Both the position numbers and the translations under genes were made by a program. A model generated the notes under the pieces. The model did no database searches, was not told the origin of the DNA, and saw only the letters and a program-made list of their open reading frames with translations. A DNA stretch of 62,606 bases from a virus. Location: positions 1 through 62,606 of IMG/VR virus record IMGVR_UViG_3300035703_000095; one strand, written 5' to 3'. Positions 21,348 to 48,135 of this stretch are shown one piece after another; within the stretch, counting starts at the first letter, position 1, and each line of letters begins with the position of its first letter.

Positions 21348-24300
21348 ATGTCATTCAACCTTTTTGGACCAACAACTAAAAATGATATTAGGGTTGGATA
21401 CATTTCAACTGAAAGAGGTTATGTTGATAGTGTTTCCATATGTGAGGCTAATGATTATGCCAAAAAGAACCCAGGAACGGTCTTTATTCTAAGAAATAGA
21501 AATATTATTAGATATTTAAATATCAATGAGGTTAATGACTTAACAGAAGAAGATCTATTATCCGATGCAGATAGTTGCACCGGTATACAATTTGAATCTG
21601 AATGTGGCCCACCAAAAGTATTTTTTTATGGTGGGGGTGGTGTAGGAGTACAGGCAAATCCAATCATAGGTTTAGATGGTGCTGTTCTTGCAATAGATCT
21701 AGTTCATGGTGGTCATGGTTATCAATATGCTCCGATTGTAGATGTAAAAGATAAATGTGGTATTGGTGCTGGAGCAGTTACCAGAGCTATTTTGGGCGAA
21801 ATTGTAGAGACATATGAAGTTTATGATCAAGAAGGTGATTTTGAAGATTATGAACTGTGCTTGCCTGAAGATGTTGGATTTGGTAGGAGATATGATCCTG
21901 ATGGTAAGGACATTGGATCTTGGGATCCAACTTTATATGCGAATTTGAATAAAGATCCCATCAACAGAGAAATACAAAAGTATCAAGACTTCTTACAGAA
22001 ACTATCAAAACCTTGGTGGACTACTAGAAAGAAAACTCCACTTTCTGTAACATCAGGTTCTAAAGTAACAAGAACAAAATTTAATGTTACCGATAAAACC
22101 TATCGTGAAACTCAAGATGCTAAGGGAAATACTGGATATGTAGGTCTTGGGCAAATTTGGAATGACTTTATGAATAGTCATGCAATATCTCCAGTACCAC
22201 CGTCAAATGTACCTGGAAGTGATTTCGCTGCAGACTTATTTACTTTTGAATGGGAGGAAGATTTCCCTTATGATGGGGAGTATATCTTTAGAGGATGTGG
22301 CGATGGTGCTATTCGAGATCTTTACATAGATAATGATAAAGTTACAACTCTTACATCATACAATGAGGCTCCAGCAGTTGCTAAAAAGGAAATTTCTGCG
22401 GGTGTTCATAGAATCAGATTAGATTTAAAAAATGGTGGCATAACGGATAAGGTATCAGCAGAACCAGCATCTCCCCAGATTACTGTTAAGGAAAAAACAC
22501 CACAACGAATTGATGTAGACTTTAATGTTTATGGTCAGGGTAAGGCTACAGAACAAATGTCATTTTCTTTTGTGTCAGAAGATGGATCTCATTCTTTTGT
22601 AATTAAAGGTGTTAATAAAAACAAACAAAATAGAAAAGATACTATTAGAGTAAAACCAAATGTAAAGTATAAAGTCACAGCAAGTTCAAGTAAAGGAAAA
22701 GTTGAGCAAGGTATAATTAAAAATGGAAAGAAAGATAAGGAAGGTGGAATAGGCGAGTCAAATAAAATTTTTGCAGATCATATTGCATCAGCAAATGATA
22801 ATGATGATATTCAAATTACAACTTCTTCTGGAATCTTTAAGAGTTCAAATAAAAGAAAAGTAGGTGGTAGAAGCACGTTTGACTTGTCTTTTAAAGTTGA
22901 TTACCAACCAAAAACAATAACATACACACCAAGTTTTGGAAAAAGTATTTTCAACACCTCCGATTATATCAATAAAGCAGATAGGAAACTGTGGAAGACA
23001 GATCCAATCCCTTCGGGTGCAAAGGATAATGATTTTGCTACGACCTATGGAGTTATTCCATTTGATAGAAATACTCAGAAAGCAAAGAAAGAAAGTTTCG
23101 CAGGTACTCACGTCATTCGTTGGGCTTTCGTTGAGTTTCCTGTAGATGGAAATTATGTTATTGAAACATGGGTTGATGATAATTTAACTCTTTATATTGG
23201 CAACAGAAATGCAGGAGGTCGCACAGGTGCTGGTAATGGTTTAATCGATGTAGAAAAGGGTGGAGATGAAGTCATTATTACAAAAAGAGGATTTACTGCA
23301 AACGGAGTCAGTACAGGAAAATCTTCTGATACTCGTTATTTTAAAGCAGGAAAATACAGAATTAGAGCAGAATTAGAACAAGGCGATTTTGGTCCACTAT
23401 CGCCATCAAATCCAATGACTCTTGCGATAAACATTACACTTGCAGGAAGTTCTACACCATTAGCATCTGCAAAATCTTGGAATGATAATCCAATGGGAGT
23501 TGCATTAACTATCGATGCTCCTTTACCACCCATTCCCCAAGAACCTATTCCTCAGCAAGAAGGAAGATGTCCGAATAATCCAATTTGGTCAACAAGATTT
23601 CCGGGTTCAGCACAAAAATGGTGGCCAGTTCAATATTCTGAAGTTCTTAGAGCAAATGGTATAATTCCTTGGTCCAATTTCTTAAACAGGTATGCAGTTT
23701 CTCCTATTCCTCCATTAAGTATTGCAGGTAGTGATGGTGGTGGAATTGTATATAAAAATTCTTGGCAGGTAGACATTCCATATGATGGATTTTATCAATT
23801 CGCAGTTCAAAGAGATGAAACTGCCAGAATATATTTGGATGGAACTTTAGCATTTGATATTAAGACTGCGGGTGATATGATCTGGAAAGATTTTAGAAAT
23901 AAACCAAAATTCCAGAAACTATTCATTACTAAAGGAAGACATACTATATCTGTAGAACTTGAAAATAGTACGACAGAAGTATTTGAAAATATTGATAAAA
24001 AAATATTCAGCACACTAGATTGGGCAGTTTCTCCAACCCCTCCACCTCAACCACAACAGTCTTCGACAACAGAAGAGCAGAAGGCAGGAAGTTTATTTGT
24101 AAAAGAGGGAAGTTCATATTATTTGCTTGCAGGTGGTAATGATTTAGTTGAGATTGATTTTGTTTTTGATTGGGATGATAACCCATATATCGCAGGAACT
24201 GCGGTAACGAAGATTACGATACCATCTGAAAAAGGAGGACCAGTAGTTTTTTCTAGACCACAATTTGGTGCATCTGGATCTATTCGTAAAACAGGAACAT

Positions 24301-25691
24301 TCAGAACAAACAAAAAGTATGGTCCAATTATTTTTGAGGGAAGAGCACCAGGATCTCCAGATCCTAAAATTGTTAATACTGGTTCCAAAGAAGATCAGAG
24401 ACAACAAAGAATTAATTTTTATGATGCAGATGGTAATGATGTTAACGCTAAATTAAGTGCAGTAAATGCTAAACAACTATCTCCACCAAGAGTCATTCAG
24501 ACGGCTCCTGCGCCTGCCGAAATTCCAACATCACAAAATTTAACAAAAAGTGGAATTACTTATAGCGGTCCTCCACTTGCGACTTACTTCACTGGTTTTA
24601 TATCTCCTCAATTCAAAAATCCATTCAAAGTTCCAGCAGAAGAAATTCAAGGAAAAACTTGGACTATGACATGGAGTAATGTTGACTTTTTTGAAGATGG
24701 TCAATATGAAATAAAAGCAAAGGTTGACGATGTTCTTGTTATAAAAATTGATGGTGTTGTTTTAAATACTGTAAAAATTGCAGAGGGACTTAAATCATTT
24801 TATTATAATACAACAAAGGGAAAGAAAACACTTCAAGTTGAGTTATCAAACATTAGGGTTGCTTCTACTAGTTTCGCTCAAAATCCTGTTTACTTTTCTT
24901 TAGAAATTACAAAAAAAGTTTCTGTGGGAACTGGAGTAAGTAAATCTTGGACTCAAAACCCTGTAGCAATTTCAGCCATCTTAATTCCTCCACCATGTCC
25001 TAAGAGAATTAGAGGTAAGGGTGTTGTAACTGAAGTTATTGTCGATGATCCAGGAAATGGATATCTAGTTCCACAAAATGATCTTCCTCCAGAAGTAATA
25101 CCAACGTATCCAGTTTCATTACGTCTCAAAAATGTAATTGTAACAAATCCAGGTATTAACTATAACTGCGGAGTAGATAGAATTGAAATAACACCAAATA
25201 ACGGTGCAATACTTGATTATGAATGCGATACTTTTGGAAGAATTGTAAATGTAAAAGTATTGAACCCAGGTCTTGGATTTACTGAATATCCAACAATTAG
25301 AATGGTAACTCCTCCAGCAGATCCAAATGATCCTGTTCCCGTTGTACCAACAGGAGTCAATGCTGCATTTATACCCCAATTTGAAGTTGTACGCGATCCA
25401 ATAGTTGCTGATCTTACAAAATTAATTCAAGTTACTGATCTAGCTGGTCTTGAAAAAACTGGATATGTTGATGGTCGTGCATATTATGGTGCAGTATTTT
25501 ATAAGGAAGGAGTTCGTTATGCTGGATTCTATGAAACACCAGGTGATCTTGTACAAGTTTACACTACTCTTCAAGAGAGCATCGATGCTCAAGTCACTAC
25601 CCCACCATCTGCAATTCAGAGACAGGGTACAAGTGTTAATAGCAACAATCCAAGACTCAATCTTCCAAATACTCCAGATAATCTTATCTAG
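21348..25691 (+). CDS. Large virion protein with four PA14-like beta modules
   Basis: A 1447-residue protein. Four modules share a pattern of an opening strand, F/Y-x-DG-x-Y, a charged D-x2-YID-type turn and a closing x-G-x-H-x-I-x-V/L-E-L: about residues 290-365 (EEDFPYDGEYIF), 588-685 (VEFPVDGNYVIE), 796-875 (VDIPYDGFYQF) and 1103-1175 (FFEDGQYEIKA). This resembles PA14/lectin-like beta sandwiches that bind sugars. Other repeats of the GNGY/GLGF type are near 80-130 and 1225-1340. Probably baseplate- or fibre-associated and surface-binding. Confidence 0.65.
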   Translation: MSFNLFGPTTKNDIRVGYISTERGYVDSVSICEANDYAKKNPGTVFILRNRNIIRYLNINEVNDLTEEDLLSDADSCTGIQFESECGPPKVFFYGGGGVGVQANPIIGLDGAVLAIDLVHGGHGYQYAPIVDVKDKCGIGAGAVTRAILGEIVETYEVYDQEGDFEDYELCLPEDVGFGRRYDPDGKDIGSWDPTLYANLNKDPINREIQKYQDFLQKLSKPWWTTRKKTPLSVTSGSKVTRTKFNVTDKTYRETQDAKGNTGYVGLGQIWNDFMNSHAISPVPPSNVPGSDFAADLFTFEWEEDFPYDGEYIFRGCGDGAIRDLYIDNDKVTTLTSYNEAPAVAKKEISAGVHRIRLDLKNGGITDKVSAEPASPQITVKEKTPQRIDVDFNVYGQGKATEQMSFSFVSEDGSHSFVIKGVNKNKQNRKDTIRVKPNVKYKVTASSSKGKVEQGIIKNGKKDKEGGIGESNKIFADHIASANDNDDIQITTSSGIFKSSNKRKVGGRSTFDLSFKVDYQPKTITYTPSFGKSIFNTSDYINKADRKLWKTDPIPSGAKDNDFATTYGVIPFDRNTQKAKKESFAGTHVIRWAFVEFPVDGNYVIETWVDDNLTLYIGNRNAGGRTGAGNGLIDVEKGGDEVIITKRGFTANGVSTGKSSDTRYFKAGKYRIRAELEQGDFGPLSPSNPMTLAINITLAGSSTPLASAKSWNDNPMGVALTIDAPLPPIPQEPIPQQEGRCPNNPIWSTRFPGSAQKWWPVQYSEVLRANGIIPWSNFLNRYAVSPIPPLSIAGSDGGGIVYKNSWQVDIPYDGFYQFAVQRDETARIYLDGTLAFDIKTAGDMIWKDFRNKPKFQKLFITKGRHTISVELENSTTEVFENIDKKIFSTLDWAVSPTPPPQPQQSSTTEEQKAGSLFVKEGSSYYLLAGGNDLVEIDFVFDWDDNPYIAGTAVTKITIPSEKGGPVVFSRPQFGASGSIRKTGTFRTNKKYGPIIFEGRAPGSPDPKIVNTGSKEDQRQQRINFYDADGNDVNAKLSAVNAKQLSPPRVIQTAPAPAEIPTSQNLTKSGITYSGPPLATYFTGFISPQFKNPFKVPAEEIQGKTWTMTWSNVDFFEDGQYEIKAKVDDVLVIKIDGVVLNTVKIAEGLKSFYYNTTKGKKTLQVELSNIRVASTSFAQNPVYFSLEITKKVSVGTGVSKSWTQNPVAISAILIPPPCPKRIRGKGVVTEVIVDDPGNGYLVPQNDLPPEVIPTYPVSLRLKNVIVTNPGINYNCGVDRIEITPNNGAILDYECDTFGRIVNVKVLNPGLGFTEYPTIRMVTPPADPNDPVPVVPTGVNAAFIPQFEVVRDPIVADLTKLIQVTDLAGLEKTGYVDGRAYYGAVFYKEGVRYAGFYETPGDLVQVYTTLQESIDAQVTTPPSAIQRQGTSVNSNNPRLNLPNTPDNLI

Positions 25692-29845: not shown

Positions 29846-32800
29846 ATGGGTCTCTCTCGTTTAGACAATTTTCTGAAGTCGGTTAGAGGAACTATTCTCT
29901 ATGTAAACCCAAACGATTTAGATGCTACGGATAGTATAGAGAATCAAGGAAATTCTCTGACTCGTCCATTTAAAACTATCCAGAGAGCTCTTATTGAGTC
30001 TGCGAGATTCTCATATCAAAGAGGTCTTAATAATGACAGATTTGGTAAGACAACAATTCTTGTCTATCCCGGAGATCATATTGTAGACAATAGACCTGGA
30101 TGGATTCCTGATGGATCTAATAATTTTAGACTAAGGGATGGAACTACTTCAAATGATTTTAGTCAGTTTGATTTAACTTCAAACTTTGATCTATCAACAC
30201 CAGAAAACGAACTCTACAAATTAAACAGTATCCATGGTGGAGTTATCATTCCAAGAGGTACTTCAATTGTTGGTCTAGATCTAAGAAAGACTAAAATCAG
30301 ACCAAAGTATGTACCAAATCCAACGAATGATAATATTGAAAGATCTGCAATTTTCAGAGTAACTGGTGGTTGCTACTTCTGGCAGTTCTCAATGTTTGAT
30401 GCTGATCCAAATGGTCAGTGCTTTATTGATTATACATCTAACCTATTTGTTCCCAATTTCTCTCACCATAAGTTAACTTGCTTTGAATATGCAGATGGTG
30501 TAAATGGTGTAAATATCAACGATACTTTCCAAACATATTCTACAGATCGTACTGATCTGGATATGTATTATGAAAAAGTTGGTCTTGCATACGGTCAATC
30601 TTCTGGTCGTCCAATCGAACCTGATTATCCATCTGCTGCACTTGATATTGAACCAAAAATTGATGAATATCGCATTGTAGGATCTACAGGAGAGGCTGTA
30701 GGAATTACCAGCATTAGATCTGGAGATGGAATCACTTCCAATGCAACAGTTACTGTAACTACAGCAACTCCAGTACCAGGATTAGATGTAGATACCCCAT
30801 TCAGAATTCAAGGTATTACTGCAGTTGGTTATGATGGTCAGTTTGTTGTTACTGAAAAAATAAGTGATACTCAAGTTTCATATAGAGTCCAAAATGCACC
30901 AGCAAATCCTCTCCCATCCGTAACTGGAGCAACTCTATCACTATCTTCAGATACTGTAACTTCAGCATCTCCTTACATTTTCAACATCTCTCTACGTTCA
31001 GTATATGGAATGTGTGGAGTTCTTGCTGATGGTTTTAAAGCATCTGGATTTAAATCCATGGTTGTTGCACAATTCACTGGAATTGGACTTCAAAAGGATG
31101 ATAATGCATTTGTAATTTTCAATGAGAATAGTGGCGTATATGATGATGCTTCTGTTCCTGGAAATGAAACAATTAGCAATAATTCCAGAGCTGTTTTCAA
31201 ACCAGAATACAGAAACTTCCATATTAAAGTAACAAATGATGCATTTGTTCAGAACGTTTCCATCTTTGCTATTGGATATGCAGAGCACTTTGTAACAGAA
31301 AATGGTGGTGATATGTCTATCACCAACTCCAACTCAAACTTTGGTGCAAAAGCTCTTGTTGCATCTGGATTTAGAAGTGCAGCATTCCCTCAGGATGATA
31401 TTGGTTATATTACTCATATTATTCCACCAAAAGAACTTTCACGTACAGAAACTGCGATTGAATTCAATTCAATTGATGTTCTAAAAACATCATCAGTTAC
31501 TGGTGTTGGATCAACAGGTAATCTCTACCTATACAATGAAACAAATGCTGACGTTCCACCAGAAAATGTTATTGAAGGTTATAGAATAGGTGCCAGACAA
31601 AATGATACTCTGGGAGTATTAGTTTCTTATGCAGGATCTGTTACTGAATACAGATCAAGAATTGTTATGCCAGGATCTCAATCAAGCAGTGAGAAGAGAT
31701 TCCAGGTTAATAGAAGCAGTGTAGGTATTAATAGTATAACAAATAACACCCTTACACTTAGAGAAAATCATACACTCTTTAATGGCGAATCTATTCGCAT
31801 TTTAAGTGATACAGGACAACTTCCAGATGGTATTATTCCAAATACAGTTTATTATGCAATTACAAGTGGAAACCCAAGCAGCGGTTTAACCACTACGACT
31901 GAAATCAAGATTGCAAAAACTCAGAATGATGCGGTAAATGCAACTGAACTAAACATTAATAACAAAGGTGGAGTCTTAAGTATTGTAAGTAGAGTCTCTG
32001 ATAAGAACTCTGGTGATGTTGGCCACCCAATTCAATATGATGAAACTGCAGGGCAGTGGTATATTAAAGTTTCTACTGCGGCTACAGATAATACAATCTA
32101 TCCAACTATTGTTGGTCTTGGTTCAACAGCACTTGGATCCGCAACACCAAGAACATACATTACCAGACTTCAAGACAATAGAAATGCTATCGATACTCTG
32201 TACAGAGTTAGATATGTTCTACCTTCAAATTCTGGTATTAATGCAAGACCTCCTAGTGATGGATTCATTGTACAAGAATCTAACTCATCTATTGGAATTA
32301 CAACTGCTGAAGTTCAAACTTACTTTGGTTCAGGGTCTCTATCAAATGTCAATGAGCAAAGAAACTTCAGACTTATTGCAGGTGCAACTTGGGACGGAAC
32401 TAACGCAAGTATCATAACTGAACTTCCACATAATCTTTCTGTTGGGTCTCAAGTTGAGTTATTCAACATAAAGAGTACTTTAAATACGACTGGTGCAAGA
32501 AATAGTGGATTCAATAGAGTTTATAATGTTGTTGGAATTAGCAGTTCAAAGCAATTTACTGTAGGACTTTCAACAAATCCAGGAACCTTTACAAATGATA
32601 CTTCATCTAGAGGTACTTCACTTCCATATTTCGAAAGAAAGAGATACAAAAACACATATTATGTCTACAGAACACAAGAAGCTCAAAAATATGTTTCGGG
32701 TGAGCAGGATGGTATCTATTACCTGACTATTCTGAATGCTTCAAACTCTCCAACGATTGCACCATTCACAGAAGAAAAATTCTCTCAACCAGTTAAAGAA

Positions 32801-35698
32801 CTTTATCCACAAATCAATCGTGATAATCCAAAATCAGATCCAGATGCATCTAGATCTTTTGCATCATCACAACTAATTGGTGAAGTTTTTGTTAACGATG
32901 TTCAGAATAGTATCACAAAAGAAACTATCAATAAAGTCCTAATTGATACTAACATTGGAGTTGGCCTTACTGATGTAGTTTCTGTAGGAGCAACTCATAC
33001 TATTCATACTTCGATTGAGCATGGTCTGAATAGACTTGTAAAAGTCAGTATTGCTAATAGCGGTATTGGATATGGATCTGGTACTCCATCAACCATTTAC
33101 AATGCCAACCTTGTTGGATTTGCAGGATCCGTTACTGGATCTAATGCTACTGCAAAGATTTCCACCAATGCGTTAGGTAATATCACTGACATTAAGATTA
33201 TGGATGGTGGTAGCGCATATGGAATTGGAAATACTCTTGCTATCGTTGGAGTAGCAACAACAGCAGGATATTCTCAAGCAGTTGTAACTGTAACTGGTAT
33301 CTATAACAACGTTGGTGATGTTGTTAGAGTTTCCGGAGTTTCCTCTTCATCTTATCAAGAATACAATAATCTCTATAGAATAACTGAGGTTTCAATTGGC
33401 AATCCAACTCAATTTAAAGTAACCTCCACAAATCCATTCCAATCTGCACCTTCAACTGGTGTAGGTGCGACTCAAACACAAAATGCATTTTTCTCTATTA
33501 CAGGAGAATCTATTCTAGTTGATACTATTTCTTATAATAATTTAACTGGAATTGCAAACATTACGACCATTAATCGTCATGGTCTAAAAGTTGACAGTAA
33601 AGTAAAATTTGTCGGAGCTGATCAGGGAATTTATAGTGGCGATTTTGTAGTCACTGAGGTTCAAGGACTTACATCATTCTCTGTTAATATTGGAATTAGC
33701 ACAAACTCACCTACTGCAACTGGCACAATCTATGCATATCGTGGAGGAGTTACCTCAAATGGTGGAGTCATTACTGTAGATAATGAAAATCTAAACGGAA
33801 GAATGATTCCTGCGTATGCAGGCATTACAACAACACTATCTGCTTTAATTCCAGACCCAATCATCGATGAAATTAATCTACAAGGAATTTCAAATCTAGA
33901 TGTTAATATTGGTGATTATTTCATGATTGATGATGAGATTGTAAGAGTTAAAACGACAACATCATCAAGTAGTATAACTGGGCCATCAAATCCCGTTTAT
34001 GTTTTCCGTGGTGTTCTTGGAACAAAGGCAGTTAATCATGCAATTAACTCCGTTGTAAGAAAAATAAAAGTTAATCCAATTGAGCTAAGAAGACACTCCA
34101 TCTCTCGTGCATCGGGACATACATTTGAATATGTTGGTTTTGGCCCTGGTAACTACTCAACTGCATTCCCAGATAAGCAGGATCGTCAAATTTCTGCACA
34201 AGAAGAACTTCTTGCACAGTCAACAAGAAAAGATGGAGGAATTAACTTCTACACAGGTATGAATGACAAGGGCATTTCATACTCTGGCAATAAAAAGTTA
34301 AGTACAGTCACTGGCCAGGAAGAAATTTTTGATACTCCAATTCAAACTGTAACTGGTGAAGATATTGGAAATCTTCCAGGATTAAATGTTATCAACCCTA
34401 TTGAAGGTGTTTTCAATAGATTGATTCGTGTAGAAGGTGGATCTGACGGTAAGGCAACATCAGAATTTTCTGGACCAGTAATCTTCAGTAATAAGATTAC
34501 TTCAACATCGAATAAAGGAATTGAATCAAATTCGATTCTGCTTCAGGGTGATGCAACAGTTTCCAGAAAGTATACCGTTGGTATTGCCACACCATCACTA
34601 GCAGGAAACCCAGGAGATGTTGTTTACTATGCAAACCCATCATCAGGTGGTTATGTTGGTTGGATTTATACATTAGATAATGAGTGGTATCGCTTTGGAA
34701 ATATCAGTATCTCCAAAAATAGCAATATTGGCATCTTTGATCAGATTGGTATTTCTACAAGCACTCCAGGACAAGCAAAACTTCTTGTTGGTTCAGGAAC
34801 AACTCAGGTTAGTGTTGATGGAAATGGTGGAGTTGGAATTGGTACGACTGCAAGTTCTTATAAACTGAATGTTAATGGAAACACAAATATTGCAGGAACT
34901 TGCTATGCAGTCTCCTACATAGGAGATGGTAATGGACTTACAAACTTAAATGCAAGTTCAACTGGATGGACAGTTATTGGTGGTGGAATTTATAATACGA
35001 GTTTAAATAATGTTGGAATTGGCACATCTGTCCCAAGATTCTCACTTGAAATTGGATCTATTGGTGTTGGTGGTACTTCACTTTGGGTAAATAATAGTGC
35101 AAGATTTGATGGATTCCTAAGTGCTAATGATGTAACGGTGACAGGAATTCTTACTGCATCATCTTTTGATCTATCAGGTGGAACTGGTAGAATTAATGCA
35201 GGAATTGTTACGACTTCAACTCTCGTAGTTGGAGCATCTGGAGCAACTATTACAACAAATGGTTTAAATGTTGGAGTTGGAACAACCGTACCTAGAGCAA
35301 AACTTGATGTTGAAGGTACGATAAGAATTAAGACTCTCCGTGAGGCTGTAGAATCACTTTCTATTAGTGGAAATGCAGTTTCAGTTGATCTCTCTAGAGC
35401 ACAAAACTTCAACTTAACCCTAAATGATAATGTAAGTTACTTCACTATTACAAATACTCCATCTGAAGCAAGTTCATTTACTATTAGAATAACTCAAGAT
35501 GGAACTGGTGGAAGAGTAGTTGACATCGATGACTTCAAAACTTCCGGAGGTGCTTCAATTCCCGTTTATTGGCCAGGTGGTGGTGTCATCCCAATCATTA
35601 CACCAACAGCAAATCGAACTGACATTTATTCGTTCAAGACTTTTGACGGTGGATCTAATTGGTATGGAACTGTTATCGGACAAAACTTTACAAATTAA
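29846..35698 (+). CDS. Very large fibre or baseplate-attached structural protein
   Basis: With 1950 residues it is the largest protein in the window. The N-terminus has the pectin-lyase-type opening TILYVNPNDLDATDS and PFKTIQRALIESARFS, pointing to a right-handed beta-helix. The middle is made of repeated beta modules (GDGITSNATVTV; SGIGYGSGTPS). The C-terminal 350 residues are fibre-like with YIGDGNGLTNLN, and the last 100 residues match the tip domain shared by three other fibres here (ending FKTFDGGSNWYGTV). Probably a long tail fibre or wedge-attached protein. Confidence 0.7.
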   Translation: MGLSRLDNFLKSVRGTILYVNPNDLDATDSIENQGNSLTRPFKTIQRALIESARFSYQRGLNNDRFGKTTILVYPGDHIVDNRPGWIPDGSNNFRLRDGTTSNDFSQFDLTSNFDLSTPENELYKLNSIHGGVIIPRGTSIVGLDLRKTKIRPKYVPNPTNDNIERSAIFRVTGGCYFWQFSMFDADPNGQCFIDYTSNLFVPNFSHHKLTCFEYADGVNGVNINDTFQTYSTDRTDLDMYYEKVGLAYGQSSGRPIEPDYPSAALDIEPKIDEYRIVGSTGEAVGITSIRSGDGITSNATVTVTTATPVPGLDVDTPFRIQGITAVGYDGQFVVTEKISDTQVSYRVQNAPANPLPSVTGATLSLSSDTVTSASPYIFNISLRSVYGMCGVLADGFKASGFKSMVVAQFTGIGLQKDDNAFVIFNENSGVYDDASVPGNETISNNSRAVFKPEYRNFHIKVTNDAFVQNVSIFAIGYAEHFVTENGGDMSITNSNSNFGAKALVASGFRSAAFPQDDIGYITHIIPPKELSRTETAIEFNSIDVLKTSSVTGVGSTGNLYLYNETNADVPPENVIEGYRIGARQNDTLGVLVSYAGSVTEYRSRIVMPGSQSSSEKRFQVNRSSVGINSITNNTLTLRENHTLFNGESIRILSDTGQLPDGIIPNTVYYAITSGNPSSGLTTTTEIKIAKTQNDAVNATELNINNKGGVLSIVSRVSDKNSGDVGHPIQYDETAGQWYIKVSTAATDNTIYPTIVGLGSTALGSATPRTYITRLQDNRNAIDTLYRVRYVLPSNSGINARPPSDGFIVQESNSSIGITTAEVQTYFGSGSLSNVNEQRNFRLIAGATWDGTNASIITELPHNLSVGSQVELFNIKSTLNTTGARNSGFNRVYNVVGISSSKQFTVGLSTNPGTFTNDTSSRGTSLPYFERKRYKNTYYVYRTQEAQKYVSGEQDGIYYLTILNASNSPTIAPFTEEKFSQPVKELYPQINRDNPKSDPDASRSFASSQLIGEVFVNDVQNSITKETINKVLIDTNIGVGLTDVVSVGATHTIHTSIEHGLNRLVKVSIANSGIGYGSGTPSTIYNANLVGFAGSVTGSNATAKISTNALGNITDIKIMDGGSAYGIGNTLAIVGVATTAGYSQAVVTVTGIYNNVGDVVRVSGVSSSSYQEYNNLYRITEVSIGNPTQFKVTSTNPFQSAPSTGVGATQTQNAFFSITGESILVDTISYNNLTGIANITTINRHGLKVDSKVKFVGADQGIYSGDFVVTEVQGLTSFSVNIGISTNSPTATGTIYAYRGGVTSNGGVITVDNENLNGRMIPAYAGITTTLSALIPDPIIDEINLQGISNLDVNIGDYFMIDDEIVRVKTTTSSSSITGPSNPVYVFRGVLGTKAVNHAINSVVRKIKVNPIELRRHSISRASGHTFEYVGFGPGNYSTAFPDKQDRQISAQEELLAQSTRKDGGINFYTGMNDKGISYSGNKKLSTVTGQEEIFDTPIQTVTGEDIGNLPGLNVINPIEGVFNRLIRVEGGSDGKATSEFSGPVIFSNKITSTSNKGIESNSILLQGDATVSRKYTVGIATPSLAGNPGDVVYYANPSSGGYVGWIYTLDNEWYRFGNISISKNSNIGIFDQIGISTSTPGQAKLLVGSGTTQVSVDGNGGVGIGTTASSYKLNVNGNTNIAGTCYAVSYIGDGNGLTNLNASSTGWTVIGGGIYNTSLNNVGIGTSVPRFSLEIGSIGVGGTSLWVNNSARFDGFLSANDVTVTGILTASSFDLSGGTGRINAGIVTTSTLVVGASGATITTNGLNVGVGTTVPRAKLDVEGTIRIKTLREAVESLSISGNAVSVDLSRAQNFNLTLNDNVSYFTITNTPSEASSFTIRITQDGTGGRVVDIDDFKTSGGASIPVYWPGGGVIPIITPTANRTDIYSFKTFDGGSNWYGTVIGQNFTN

Positions 35699-42688: not shown

Positions 42689-44101
42689 GTGGCACTTAAT
42701 TTTCCAGATAACCCTACAATAGGTTATGTCTACGTAGATTCTACTTCAAATTTTAGTTATGAATGGGATGGAACGGTATGGAAAAGTTATACCGGTGCCA
42801 GTTCAAGCAATATTAAAATTCTTGATGATATTTCTGGTTCTTTTAATGGTATTACAACTTCATTTACACTAACCAGTTCTGGAAATCTTGTTTATCCACC
42901 AACACCACAATCTCTAATTATCAATGTAGGTGGCGTTATTCAAGATCCATCTGATGACTATTCAGTATCAGACTCTAGCATCTCATTTTCAACTGCACCA
43001 GAACCAGGACTTTCGTTCTCTGGTATTTTATTAGGATCTGCAATTCCTATTGCATATGCAAATGATGGAAACCTTTATATTCGCAAAAATTACACTGGGG
43101 CTGGTACAACAGGACCTTTTGATATTGTAGAGGGGTATACTCCAGGTAACTTAGATGTTTATCGTAATGGTGTCAGATTAGTTTATGAAACGGATTTCGT
43201 TGGTACTAGTGGAACAAACTTTTTCTTATCAGAAGTAGCAACTGTTAATGATGAAATTGAAGCAGTTGCATATCAGATAACTTCTTTAGTTCAATCATCA
43301 TCTAACTTAGATAATCTAAATGTTATTGGAATTACGACGACTGGAAGATTAAATGTAAGTACAAATGCTGTAGTATCTGGCATACTAACTGCGACTGGTG
43401 GATTTGTAGGAAGTTTAACTGGAACATCATCACTTTCGCAGGGATTAACTGGCAATCCAAATATAACTGTTAATAATATTACAGGTACTGCAGCTACATT
43501 TTCAGGGAATGTAACAATTGGTGGCACATTAACTTATGAGGATGTGACCAATATTGATTCTATTGGATTGGTTACCGCAAGATCTGGAATAAGAATTACA
43601 AGCGGTGGATTAAATGTAGTTGGAGTAACAACTTCTACTGGAGGATTTGTAGGAAATTTAACTGGTACTGCATCAACTGCAGGTGTTGCCACTTATGCAT
43701 CAACTGCTGGTGTATCTACTTCTTCACAAGGACTTACCGGAACACCAAATATATCAGTAGGAACAGTCAACTCTTCAAAAATAGATCTTTCGGGACAATA
43801 TGTTCAATCTATTAATGCTGTAGGAGCACTGGATATTAACTGCAGTACTGGTAATTATTTTACCAAAACAATAAGCTCAAATAGTATATTCACTTTCAGT
43901 AATGTTCCTTCTTCCCGTGCTTATAGTTTCACTTTAGAATTAACACACACCAGTGGATCAGTTACTTGGCCAAGCGAAGTTAAATGGCCCACAGACAGTA
44001 CGCCAACTTTAACTACTGGAAAAACACATTTGTTTGTATTTGTTACAGACGACGGAGGAAGTCGCTGGCGCGGTGGAGCACTTGTTGATTATGTAAACTG
44101 A
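42689..44101 (+). CDS. Tail fibre protein (GTG start)
   Basis: The start is GTG at 42689, 29 bases after an exact late promoter. The 470-residue protein opens with FPDNPTIGYVYVD and YEWDGTVWKSYTG, a common fibre attachment module, then two beta domains (IINVGGVIQDPSDDY; VYRNGVRLVYETDF), a shaft sharing VTIGGTLTYEDVTNIDSIGL with the fibre at 38502, and the shared C-terminal tip (WPSEVKWPTDSTP, FVTDDGGSRWRG). Confidence 0.78.
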   Translation: MALNFPDNPTIGYVYVDSTSNFSYEWDGTVWKSYTGASSSNIKILDDISGSFNGITTSFTLTSSGNLVYPPTPQSLIINVGGVIQDPSDDYSVSDSSISFSTAPEPGLSFSGILLGSAIPIAYANDGNLYIRKNYTGAGTTGPFDIVEGYTPGNLDVYRNGVRLVYETDFVGTSGTNFFLSEVATVNDEIEAVAYQITSLVQSSSNLDNLNVIGITTTGRLNVSTNAVVSGILTATGGFVGSLTGTSSLSQGLTGNPNITVNNITGTAATFSGNVTIGGTLTYEDVTNIDSIGLVTARSGIRITSGGLNVVGVTTSTGGFVGNLTGTASTAGVATYASTAGVSTSSQGLTGTPNISVGTVNSSKIDLSGQYVQSINAVGALDINCSTGNYFTKTISSNSIFTFSNVPSSRAYSFTLELTHTSGSVTWPSEVKWPTDSTPTLTTGKTHLFVFVTDDGGSRWRGGALVDYVN

Positions 44102-44109
44102 GGTAGATT

Positions 44110-45291
44110 ATGGATCCCCTTTCCCAAAAAATTTTATTGGCTTCATCGAGTAGTGGTGAAGAATACTGGATTAGATATTCCAATTTTGCCACAAATAGAT
44201 TTCCTGGAGGTCTTTTACTTGATAATGATGGAAATATAGTTGGTAGTGGTTGGATATATTCAGGATCGGCATCAATATGGTATCCTTGGCATTGGAAATT
44301 AAATAGAAAAGGTGATATTCTCAACAACCTCGTCTGTAGTGATTATCCAACCGTCTCTATAGCAGGTGCATTTGTAACTCAACTTCCAAGTGGGGGAGAT
44401 TATATCTTCACAAATGGAGACTGGAGAACAAGAAGGGGAACAGATTTTACAGAAGGATCTAGAATCTCTGGATTAGGTGGTGGATATATTACTGATAGTT
44501 CTGGAAACTCTTATGGTGGTCTATACTCTATCGATAGTAATCTAAATCTTCGATGGGGAGTTGCACAAGGTGGTGTTGGTTACATTGCGAGAAGAACTGA
44601 CGGTAATATTATTCTTCCAAGCAATACTCCTAGCACCCCAGGAGATGCCAATTTACTTGTATTCGATTCTTCTAATGGATCTCTAGTATCATCATATAAA
44701 ACTTCTGGTGCTACTGACCATTACGCACAATCAACTGCTGTAGATAGTTCAGGGAATATGTATTGGGGAGGAGGGTATTCTATTTCTTCTTATGGTGCTT
44801 TAATATATAAACTCAACTCCGCCGGATCTTTGCTATGGTATTATTATAAGTATTCATTAGGACTTGGTGTTTATCCAAGCTCAGTCATTGGTATTGATTT
44901 TGATAGTGAAGGAAATGTTTATATTCAGACAGGATCTTATTTGTTTAAATTAAACTCTTCTGGCACTCCTCAGTGGTGCGTGAACATTTTTGGTTCAGAT
45001 ATTACATTTCAACTAAATCCAAGAGCGTTCAGGATTTTTGGATCATCAATTTATATTAGTACTAGAAATGCTCTTTTAAAATTACCTTTAGATGTTACAT
45101 CAATACCCAATGGAACTTATGGTCCTGCAACTTTCCAAACAGTAACTGCTAGTCTTACTAGTGATGTTCTTCCATCTGCATCATGGTCTTCTTATTCTGA
45201 GAGTCAACCAACTTATACATCCCCAACAATTGGATCACAATTTGGAACTTTTTCCACATCATCCGCCTTTAATAATATCTACCAATTCTAA
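44110..45291 (+). CDS. Beta-propeller-like protein in the fibre locus
   Basis: The 393-residue protein has blade-like repeats with the pattern GGLLLDNDGNIVGSG, GYITDSSGNSYGG, AVDSSGNMYWGGG and IDFDSEGNVYIQTG, as in PQQ/SBBP-type propellers. There is no signal peptide and no fibre shaft. Lying eight bases after a fibre gene and before a fibre assembly gene, it is probably a virion adhesin or decoration (inference). Confidence 0.65.
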   Translation: MDPLSQKILLASSSSGEEYWIRYSNFATNRFPGGLLLDNDGNIVGSGWIYSGSASIWYPWHWKLNRKGDILNNLVCSDYPTVSIAGAFVTQLPSGGDYIFTNGDWRTRRGTDFTEGSRISGLGGGYITDSSGNSYGGLYSIDSNLNLRWGVAQGGVGYIARRTDGNIILPSNTPSTPGDANLLVFDSSNGSLVSSYKTSGATDHYAQSTAVDSSGNMYWGGGYSISSYGALIYKLNSAGSLLWYYYKYSLGLGVYPSSVIGIDFDSEGNVYIQTGSYLFKLNSSGTPQWCVNIFGSDITFQLNPRAFRIFGSSIYISTRNALLKLPLDVTSIPNGTYGPATFQTVTASLTSDVLPSASWSSYSESQPTYTSPTIGSQFGTFSTSSAFNNIYQF

Positions 45292-45303: not shown

Positions 45304-45771
45304 ATGTACGCTCTAATTAAAAATAATTCTGTTGCTAAGTATCCCATCGGATTAGGCGACTTAAAAAAAGAATATCCAAATACTTCTTTTCCTTCTCGAT
45401 TTTCGGAGTTTGATCTTACAGATTATGGTGTTGTTGAGGTAGTTTCTACGGAAGTCCCTAGTTATAATCCAGATGCTGAAAGAGTTATTGAAGGAACACC
45501 ATCATTAAAAGATGATGTTTGGGAACAAGTTTGGGTTATCGAACCTCTTTCTGCTGAAGAACAACAACAAATCTTAAATAATAAAGTTTCTTCCGTTAGA
45601 TCTCAAAGAGATAGACTCCTACAAGAAACAGATTGGGTTGTTATAAAAGCAAAAGAGACTGACACAAATCTTTCTGCAGGATTTAAAGAGTATCGTCAAG
45701 CACTTAGAGATATTACAGAACAAGAAGGATTCCCGCATAATATAATTTGGCCAATTAAACCAAATTTTTAA
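45304..45771 (+). CDS. Tail fibre assembly-like protein
   Basis: A 155-residue protein. The C-terminal half (SVRSQRDRLLQETDWVVIK, then YRQALRDITEQEGFPHNIIW) matches the family of phage tail fibre assembly chaperones (Caudovirales tail assembly). It follows the propeller gene by 12 bases and likely helps fold or attach neighbouring fibres. Confidence 0.78.
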   Translation: MYALIKNNSVAKYPIGLGDLKKEYPNTSFPSRFSEFDLTDYGVVEVVSTEVPSYNPDAERVIEGTPSLKDDVWEQVWVIEPLSAEEQQQILNNKVSSVRSQRDRLLQETDWVVIKAKETDTNLSAGFKEYRQALRDITEQEGFPHNIIWPIKPNF

Positions 45772-45805: not shown

Positions 45806-46870
45806 ATGTCTAGAGCATCCAATCTTGCGGGATTTGTAACAAGTATAACTCCAGTTAATAATCTATCTGTTGGTGTTGTTACTGCAACAAGTTTTATTGG
45901 AGATGGATCAGGACTCACTGGTATTGTTGGTTCTGGATCTGGAATAATTATACTTGATGGTAATGTTACTGTAGGAACAGCAGGAACAATTAATTTTGGT
46001 GAAAATTTAAGTGTATCTCCAATTTCTGCGGGATTGGTAACTGTAACTGGCAGTTCTTATGTAAACACTGCTGGTGTATCGACTTATGCAAGCACTGCAG
46101 GAATTTCAACATATACTTCAGAATGGATTCTTGGTGCTAATGGGTCAACTGATTATACTTTCACTGGCCCTGGATTTACTACGGCAACCAATGACCCAAC
46201 TTTATTCTTAATAAGAGGTCAACAGTATAGATTTACAAATACAATGGGTATACACCCATTTAGAATTCAAAGCACTCCAAATGGATCTGTTGGTACTCAG
46301 TACAATACTGGAATCACCAACAATGATGTAACGAATGGCACATTAACTTGGAACGTTAATTTTAATGCTCCAGATATTTTATATTATCAATGTACTTCCC
46401 ATGCATCAATGGGTGGAAAAATTTATATTTTAAATGCTGGCATATCATCAGATACAAGTATTAACACAACTGGCATTGTAACCGCATCAACCTTTGATGC
46501 CTTTAGTGGCAGACTAAGGAATGTAGAACTTGAAAATTACTCTGAAAGAGTTTATAACTTAGGTAACACTGGAGTATCAACAACAATAAATCTAGTCAAT
46601 GGAAACTTTGTAACTGCAACCCTTACTGATGACTGTACATTTACTTTCAACACAGGTATCTCTACAGGTGCAGTTTCATTTACTTTATTCCTAACAAATG
46701 ATGCAACTCCCAATAGATCTATTACTTGGCCTGTATCTGTAAAATGGCCAAATAATATAATTCCAACAAGAACAACTGCTGCAAGTAAATCTGACGTATA
46801 TACATTTTTTACTTATGATAATGGAACATCTTGGTATGGAAATCTAACACTATTCAATTATCCAACCTAA
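45806..46870 (+). CDS. Tail fibre protein with a cupredoxin-like domain
   Basis: The 354-residue fibre has the FIGDGSGLTGIVG motif near residue 30. A domain at about 110-212 resembles a cupredoxin: DYTFTGPGF, an IHPFRIQ strand with His150, and the C-terminal loop YYQCTSHASMGGKIYIL with Cys196, His199 and Met202, the set expected for a type 1 copper site. The last 110 residues are the shared fibre tip (WPVSVKWPNNIIPTR, FFTYDNGTSWYGNL). Copper binding is inferred. Confidence 0.75.
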   Translation: MSRASNLAGFVTSITPVNNLSVGVVTATSFIGDGSGLTGIVGSGSGIIILDGNVTVGTAGTINFGENLSVSPISAGLVTVTGSSYVNTAGVSTYASTAGISTYTSEWILGANGSTDYTFTGPGFTTATNDPTLFLIRGQQYRFTNTMGIHPFRIQSTPNGSVGTQYNTGITNNDVTNGTLTWNVNFNAPDILYYQCTSHASMGGKIYILNAGISSDTSINTTGIVTASTFDAFSGRLRNVELENYSERVYNLGNTGVSTTINLVNGNFVTATLTDDCTFTFNTGISTGAVSFTLFLTNDATPNRSITWPVSVKWPNNIIPTRTTAASKSDVYTFFTYDNGTSWYGNLTLFNYPT

Positions 46871-46884
46871 GTTAAGGTAAAGTT

Positions 46885-48135
46885 ATGTCTTTTATTCATA
46901 ACAGAATCCGAAAAGGACCAATGTTTCCGCAAGGATCAGTAACTTTTAATGCTCCCGGAAACTGGACTTCTCCTGCAAGAATTTATTCAGTTACAGTATC
47001 GGGACAAGGTGCTGCCGGCAATCCAGGAGAAGCAGGAGTTGCAGGATCTGCTGGAGATGGAAACCCGGGAACTCCGGGAACTAATGGTTCTGGAGGATCT
47101 GGTGGAGCTGGTGGTACAGGAAATCCAGGAAACCATGGTAATGGAGGTGGTGGAGGAGGTGGTGGTGCTATGGGAAGATCGGGAAACCCAACTCTGCTAG
47201 GCGTTCCCGGATCGAATGCCGCAACAGTAATAATCCCATTTTCTGCGGGAACTGGTGGAGCAGCAGCTAATGCTGTTTCAACACCAGCAAATCCTGGATT
47301 TGCTGGAAATACTGGAAATGCAGGATCTGGTAATCCAGGATCTGCAGGTAATCCAGGAACTGCCGGAAGTGCAGGAAGTCCTGGTTTTTCCAATCCAGGA
47401 GGTGCAGGAAGTCCTGGAGCAAATGGAAATATAGGAGCATTTTCCTCTGCCTTGGGGATTGTTTTCCCAGGTGGAGCTGGTGGTACTGGTGGCACTGGAA
47501 ACCCAGGAACCGGAGGAAATGCTGGAACAGGAGGAAATGCGGGAAATCCAGGATCTGTAGGAGGAACTGGAAATCCTGGAGTAGGGGGTAATGGTGGTGG
47601 TAGTGGTTCTGGTGGAGGTGGTGGAGGTAATAGTCCAGCTCCAAGTGGAAATCCTGGAACTGGTGGCGCAGGTGGAGGGGGTGGTCTTGGAGGAAACCCA
47701 GGAGGATTTTCTGGCGTTGCTGGATCTCCAGGATCTCCATCTCTTCCTTCTGGTGGTGATGGTGGGACTAATCCGACGCCCGGTAGTGGATATCCATTTC
47801 CCGTTACGCAAGCAACATGGGGTGGATCTGGTGGATATGGCGGATCTCCAGGAAATCCTGGTTCTCGTTATGCTGGAGGCGGTGGCGGAGGTGGTGCTGG
47901 TGGATTTGGTGGATTTGGAACACCAGGAACCACAGGAGCTTCAGGAAATCCTGGTTCTGGAGCGACAGCAGGAACTTCAGGATTTCCAGGATCATCTGGT
48001 TCATCAAACCCAGGATCGGCAGGATTGAGTGCAACTCCTGCATCATCATATCCAGTTCAGGTTGCGGCATCAACCGTCTATCCAATAACTGTTGGACCTG
48101 GTGGTTATATAACCATCTCTTGGACCACTCAATAA
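46885..48135 (+). CDS. Collagen-like glycine-rich fibre protein
   Basis: The 416-residue protein has a short N-terminal beta module (SVTFNAPGNWTSPARIYSV) and about 340 residues rich in Gly-X-Y triplets, many GNP, GTP or GSP with proline in the Y position (GNPGTPGTNG, GSPGFSNPGG). GGGGGGGG-type loops occur too. It ends with YPITVGPGGYITISWTTQ. It may form collagen-like triple helices or polyglycine-II sheets. It begins a cassette repeated at 51823 and lies close to three 2OG oxygenase genes. Confidence 0.72.
   Translation: MSFIHNRIRKGPMFPQGSVTFNAPGNWTSPARIYSVTVSGQGAAGNPGEAGVAGSAGDGNPGTPGTNGSGGSGGAGGTGNPGNHGNGGGGGGGGAMGRSGNPTLLGVPGSNAATVIIPFSAGTGGAAANAVSTPANPGFAGNTGNAGSGNPGSAGNPGTAGSAGSPGFSNPGGAGSPGANGNIGAFSSALGIVFPGGAGGTGGTGNPGTGGNAGTGGNAGNPGSVGGTGNPGVGGNGGGSGSGGGGGGNSPAPSGNPGTGGAGGGGGLGGNPGGFSGVAGSPGSPSLPSGGDGGTNPTPGSGYPFPVTQATWGGSGGYGGSPGNPGSRYAGGGGGGGAGGFGGFGTPGTTGASGNPGSGATAGTSGFPGSSGSSNPGSAGLSATPASSYPVQVAASTVYPITVGPGGYITISWTTQ

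Follow-up and report, generated by a model that had tools for sequence, protein, structure and literature searches.

A predicted cupredoxin domain with a conserved type 1 copper ligand set in the tail fibre of a T4-like phage

The stretch of viral DNA analysed here (IMG/VR record IMGVR_UViG_3300035703_000095, 62,606 nucleotides; hereafter the window) is a fragment of a T4-like phage in which baseplate hub, tube cap, tail tube and fibre families surround a tail fibre ORF (Table 1). Residues 56 to 210 of the fibre match positions 256 to 410 of the 412 positions of phrog_677, the cyanomyovirus baseplate wedge tail fibre connector (E 2.5e-32), and the C-terminal domain of that family corresponds to the predicted cupredoxin domain of the window. 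The families found at the C terminus of the fibre recur at the C termini of the window ORFs at 42689-44101 and 29846-35698. The segment in which the original prediction had placed a type 1 copper site made up of His150, Cys196, His199 and Met202 lies after the N-terminal part and ahead of the C-terminal domain. Translation of the ORF confirmed all four residues at these positions, the last three in the loop YYQCTSHASMGG, which begins at fibre residue 193. The C-x2-H-x2-M pattern of this loop occurs only once across the six frames of the 62.6 kb window. The bounds of the domain are best set at approximately the coordinates in Table 1; the span first proposed was 46133-46443 (residues 110-212).

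Table 1. The tail fibre gene, its parts, the putative copper ligands and the gene directly upstream, in window coordinates.
Feature	Coordinates	Strand	Evidence
Tail fibre assembly-like gene, directly upstream of the fibre ORF	45304..45771	+	phrog_4912, E 1.2e-20
Tail fibre ORF, 354 aa	45806..46870	+	phrog_677 match and C-terminal tail-fibre families phrog_9017/7760
Fibre N-terminal part, residues 1-106	45806..46123	+	residues 13-95 match tail fibre family phrog_6942; phrog_677 match begins at residue 56
Predicted cupredoxin domain, residues 107-210	46124..46435	+	HMM match 46124-46432; AF2 model; PDB matches
His150, putative first ligand (HPF motif; GIHPFR)	46253..46255	+	H in 43/44 representatives
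Cys196, putative ligand	46391..46393	+	C in 43/44 representatives
His199, putative ligand	46400..46402	+	H in 43/44 representatives
Met202, putative axial ligand	46409..46411	+	M in 41/44 representatives
C-terminal fibre domain, residues 213-354	46442..46867	+	phrog_9017, 7760, 22179

A PDB search with the fibre sequence alone retrieved no cupredoxin; its only matches were subunits of ATP synthase plus a single unrelated chain. When a profile of 34 relatives was used, 93 distinct sequences were matched at E values up to 10, and the best 60 of these 93 were all cupredoxins or cytochrome oxidase subunit 2. The matches listed include copper nitrite reductase (1.1e-6), plastocyanin (1.7e-5) and amicyanin (3.1e-5), as well as rusticyanin, pseudoazurin, azurin, auracyanin, another cupredoxin and cytochrome oxidase subunit 2. 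The 34 rows of the profile are the window domain and 33 others, taken from 39 distinct sequences after near-identical rows, the ligand-free copy at 557-655 of locus L029 and a copy from L033 had been dropped; the list of 39 was already free of the ligand-free L022 and L023, of short matches and of duplicates. In the profile alignment to plastocyanin 2plt (E 1.7e-5), the H, C, H and M all coincide, and the alignment bears out the earlier statement that the loop is two residues shorter than that of plastocyanin; its spacing is that of amicyanin, a likeness that had been missed. When the 49 members were searched one by one against family models at E values up to 0.1, the Pfam models PF00127 (Copper-bind) and PF25489 matched 18 and 22 members, and among NCBIfam models amicyanin matched the most (22), followed by halocyanin (15) and plastocyanin (5). 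The window domain alone falls below the curated cut-offs of both collections.

Structure prediction corroborated the profile search. The AF2 model of the domain (pLDDT 94.5, pTM 0.87) has eight strands, and VIA-align placed it closest to the N-terminal cupredoxin domain of Hyphomicrobium nitrite reductase 2dv6 (Z 10.5, 18% identity) and to rusticyanin 2cal (Z 9.7, 22% identity, rmsd 2.0 over 91 residues), both of which occur in other contexts. Foldseek gave one PDB match below 0.001, again 2dv6 (8.9e-4), with TM-scores of about 0.5. The model and the matches to solved cupredoxins thus agree on the Greek-key beta-sandwich of about eight strands that characterizes cupredoxins, and the His/Cys/His/Met order is that of a type 1 copper protein, as the original prediction had held. 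Judged from the model and the sequence matches, residues 107-210 of the fibre almost certainly form a cupredoxin domain.

Among the named families, amicyanin (NCBIfam TIGR02657; Paracoccus denitrificans, PDB 1aac) shares with the window domain both the cupredoxin fold and the C-x2-H-x2-M loop, whose ligands in amicyanin are Cys92, His95 and Met98 (PMC12723479, available part). The window domain, however, scores 16.5 bits and does not pass the TIGR02657 cut-off of 110.2 bits, it belongs to a phage fibre while amicyanin is a free electron carrier, and it has His-Pro instead of His-Asn after the first ligand. Proline follows the first His in 40 of the 44 representatives, while the available part of PMC12723479 gives Asn at this position in amicyanin and Ser in rusticyanin; because of this proline, the second sphere differs from that of these two proteins. 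The same part of that source describes a change of potential and stability when Asn54 of amicyanin is replaced by Ser, and the redox properties of the window domain may be unusual because Pro stands where amicyanin has Asn54. Plastocyanin (PF00127) has the same fold and all four ligands in the same order (2plt), but its C-x2-H-x4-M loop is not found in the window domain, where the stretch between His and Met is the shortened one. The best Pfam match of the window domain is the At5g54830-like domain PF25489 (E 0.00068, 20.0 bits), below its cut-off of 27, which is passed by a lipoprotein-like gammaproteobacterial relative, L219 (29.1 bits).

To what extent the four ligands are conserved was assessed with a ligand-blind profile of the N-terminal half of the domain, with the His masked and the loop left out. 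Many loci had been found by loop-containing patterns, so that intact copies are favoured among them, a bias that the ligand-blind profile lessens, although its rows were the same ones. After 47 of the 404 matches had been set aside for want of enough downstream sequence, 357 usable distinct matches were left. His and the loop were both present in 349, neither was present in five, two had His and C-x2-H without Met, and one had a gap; in 48 clusters at 60% identity, the same categories numbered 41, 4, 2 and 1. Loss of the His with the loop retained was observed in none of the 357. Where the site was intact, the loop was seven residues long in 345 of 349 matches. In a separate set of 399 distinct matches, 350 read HCHM, two read YSQS and one each read HCHQ, HCH-, H--- and -CHM, while the other 43 were matches to the N-terminal half only, without the His, and were wedge copy 2 (see below) as far as inspected.

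The six best-kept columns among the 44 representatives (domain numbering) are Tyr88 (44), His93, His44 and Cys90 (43 each) and Phe37 and Met96 (41 each); all four ligands fall within these six, and the loop residues between them vary. A further alignment contained the window and 48 of the 105 representatives, including the ligand-free L022; those left out were mostly wedge-type copies, together with more of the closely related sequences and the rows reading HCHQ and HCH-. Of 388 codons at the Cys, 297 were TGT, 89 were TGC and two were replaced, and the second His was encoded by CAT in 269, by CAC in 117 and replaced in two. The change at these two positions is therefore almost exclusively silent, compared with 33-37 different codons at each x position of the loop. 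The first-His column holds other residues as well, contributed by wedge-protein copies without the site.

With few exceptions, then, a sequence either keeps all of the ligands or has lost them as a set. The Cys, His and Met did not vary freely on a retained fold but were kept against a varying background, and the site put forward in the original prediction has thus survived comparison with homologous fibres. The motif goes beyond chance because the PDB profile matches are cupredoxins, the fold agrees and the ligands are kept amid a varying background; with profile, fold and conservation in accord, a chance motif was rejected. The site is very probably maintained for a metal. That this metal is copper is plausible for the fibre domain and, in our assessment, probable.

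Some individual variants depart from the common form. In two nearly identical relatives (L022 3001-3273 and L023 3001-3246), Tyr, Ser, Gln and Ser replace the four ligands and the domain is kept. Phage S-SKS1 (L024 3001-3339) has C-x4-H-x2-M, in which an insertion sets Cys and His two residues further apart, a form seen in three distinct sequences. Gln replaces Met (C-x2-H-x2-Q) in residues 426-536 of a wedge ORF segment (L105), and one copy in L083 also lacks the Met; Gln serves as the axial ligand in stellacyanin.

The domain was found by tblastn (E up to 0.01) in 351 of 50,697 phage records, mostly cyanophages; by name, 268 are Synechococcus, 55 'Cyanophage' and 21 Prochlorococcus. In many cyanomyoviruses it terminates a gp9/gp10-like baseplate protein. 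In the phrog_677 members of syn9 and S-SSM5, for example, it forms the C terminus and a T4 gp9/gp10 domain (PF07880) the N terminus, whereas the window fibre has no PF07880 match; about the first 60 residues of the syn9 protein match T4 gp10 and gp9 in the PDB. An AF2 model of the whole 408-residue S-SSM5-type connector has a mean pLDDT of only 60.3 and a pTM of 0.33, with the C-terminal domain from about residue 301 at 79-89. The domain is also carried by podovirus fibres, those of the Autographiviridae P-GSP1 and P-SCSP2, and phages of Methylophilales and Pelagibacter have a more distantly related version. A search of BFVD returned cyanophage fibres and, more weakly, beta-sandwich proteins of Pithovirus and Marseillevirus. 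Bacterial assemblies contained 23 loci with the domain, some resembling phage contigs and others exported or lipid-anchored cell proteins; from their N-termini, read by eye, L211, L213, L214, L219, L220 and L222-L224 look like the latter.

A second line of evidence comes from a relative of the fibre, and applies to that protein rather than to the fibre itself. In cyanomyoviruses, the connector gene is followed by one for a baseplate wedge protein (phrog_708, syn9), which has one or two copies of the domain. Among seven phages compared, copy 2 is intact in ACG-2014d, S-RIM14 and S-SSM6b, all of which lack copy 1, and is without the site in S-SSM5, S-RIM2, S-RIM12 and syn9 (the last partial), all of which have an intact copy 1. 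The count was extended to 140 rows, of which 45 with an incomplete copy 2 were set aside, the other 95 giving 70 distinct sequences. Copy 1 is intact and copy 2 without the site in 53 of the 70, and copy 2 is present alone and intact in 14. The other three comprise one with copy 1 intact and HSDH in copy 2, one with copy 1 short of the Met only and copy 2 dead, and one with both copies intact. Hence exactly one copy with all four ligands is present in 68 of the 70, and no wedge sequence among the 70 lacks any site. One or a few evolutionary events, perhaps a single exchange, may lie behind the two wedge groups, so these counts amount to one strong pattern, not to 68 independent ones. As read from these sequences, the pattern shows that the domain can exist without the site and yet that each wedge chain keeps one. 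Since a wedge chain retains an intact site while tolerating a ligand-free second copy, a job beyond folding is suggested.

On balance, we favour the hypothesis that the fibre domain is a true cupredoxin whose type 1 copper site, with its loop of amicyanin length, is intact and under selection, and that the metal-loaded pole of the domain forms a contact face in the tail machine. In known cupredoxins, the ligand pole with its exposed C-terminal His docks on partners, which leads us to propose a contact-face role for the fibre domain; this part of the hypothesis is tentative. The fibre, in which no export signal is evident, would be assembled in the cytoplasm, where copper is scarce and the site may at that stage contain no metal or one other than copper. 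Copper would then be taken up after lysis, from host debris or sea water, and would be bound at one pole of the beta-sandwich, with the strand of His150 on one side and the Cys/His/Met loop on the other; once loaded with metal, this pole could serve as a preformed contact face.

Copper or another metal might instead act solely as a structural pin that stiffens a small beta-sandwich exposed in sea water, like the metal ions of other fibres. Exposed fibre and baseplate modules would gain from stability, the site ties distant parts of the chain together, and its ligands are strongly conserved. But the fold is apparently independent of the site because wedge copies without it persist, in 53 of the 70 distinct sequences, yet one intact copy per chain is kept; rigidity alone, among the roles first suggested, is weakened by the retention of these copies as domains, and we consider it an unlikely explanation. 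A redox role for the site is possible, given that the ligand set is complete and belongs to a class built for electron transfer, that baseplate connectors of cyanomyoviruses bear the domain and that each wedge chain has one intact site. In its explicit form, copper would be reduced or oxidised at the host surface or in the periplasm, and would either accept electrons or work as a switch in attachment or tail contraction. No redox partner or conserved docking patch was identified, however, and the domain also occurs in fibres of podoviruses and in phages whose hosts are not photosynthetic; there is perhaps a minor chance that this form is correct.

It is rather doubtful that the site no longer binds copper and persists as a conserved hydrogen-bond or packing network, or for another ion such as zinc. 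Folding in the cytoplasm and a second sphere with His-Pro instead of His-Asn would be in keeping with such a site, but Cys, His and Met are kept around a freely varying loop and lost jointly, which a metal site fits better. That the domain mimics a photosynthetic electron carrier of the host, for instance plastocyanin, is very improbable, and such mimicry, also raised in the original prediction, was rejected. Most carriers of the domain are cyanophages, but the loop is of amicyanin and not plastocyanin length, and related domains exist in Methylophilales and Pelagibacter phages, whose hosts are not photosynthetic, and in lipoprotein-like proteins of Gammaproteobacteria. Finally, a redox or copper switch might operate the tails of marine T4-like phages, with every connector or wedge chain requiring one intact type 1 copper site, the state of that site (copper bound, reduced or oxidised) governing fibre deployment or commitment to infection, and cyanophage virions forming an oceanic pool of protein-bound copper; this we regard as speculative and improbable.

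The known type 1 copper sites belong to electron carriers and oxidases, and the sequences described here hint that ocean phages employ a metal site in their infection machinery. If so, a metal cofactor would be added to the virion machine, in the fibres and baseplates of hundreds of cyanophages, and would provide a testable handle on cyanophage attachment. Phages would also be linked to the marine copper cycle, as they were to iron by the Ferrojan horse hypothesis, according to which metal ions (iron) in phage fibres are used for host entry (Bonnain et al. 2016, as cited in the available part of PMC10892097). Among titles and abstract starts of the open-access literature, none was found that describes a cupredoxin domain as part of a phage fibre or baseplate, and the terms copper and gp9 are absent from the available part of PMC3037559; some of these proteins may already be labelled as cupredoxins by automatic annotation.

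Several minor observations concern the bacterial loci and the neighbours of the fibre gene. Six of the cell proteins (L213, L219, L220, L222, L223 and L224) come from Gammaproteobacteria and other Proteobacteria, are about 510-530 aa long and begin like lipoproteins; they have the loop CRNHKxM and His-Asp instead of His-Pro. Four loci filed as bacterial assemblies (L208, L209, L210 and L229) resemble T4-like phage DNA; Pfam assigns gp9/gp10-like N-termini to L229 and, just below the cut-off, to L208, and similar starts were seen by eye in L209 and L210. In the window, the fibre ORF is adjoined at 46885-48135 by a glycine-rich protein with many repeats of the GNPG, GSGG and collagen-like kinds, whose match to PF01391 (E 0.00095) lies below the cut-off. 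The 393-aa ORF at 44110-45291 has no PHROG match and only a weak match to a beta-propeller repeat (PF06739). Farther upstream, at 21348-25691, lies a 1447-aa virion protein whose internal segment 775-1067 matches the major head protein family phrog_773 (E 1.6e-39).
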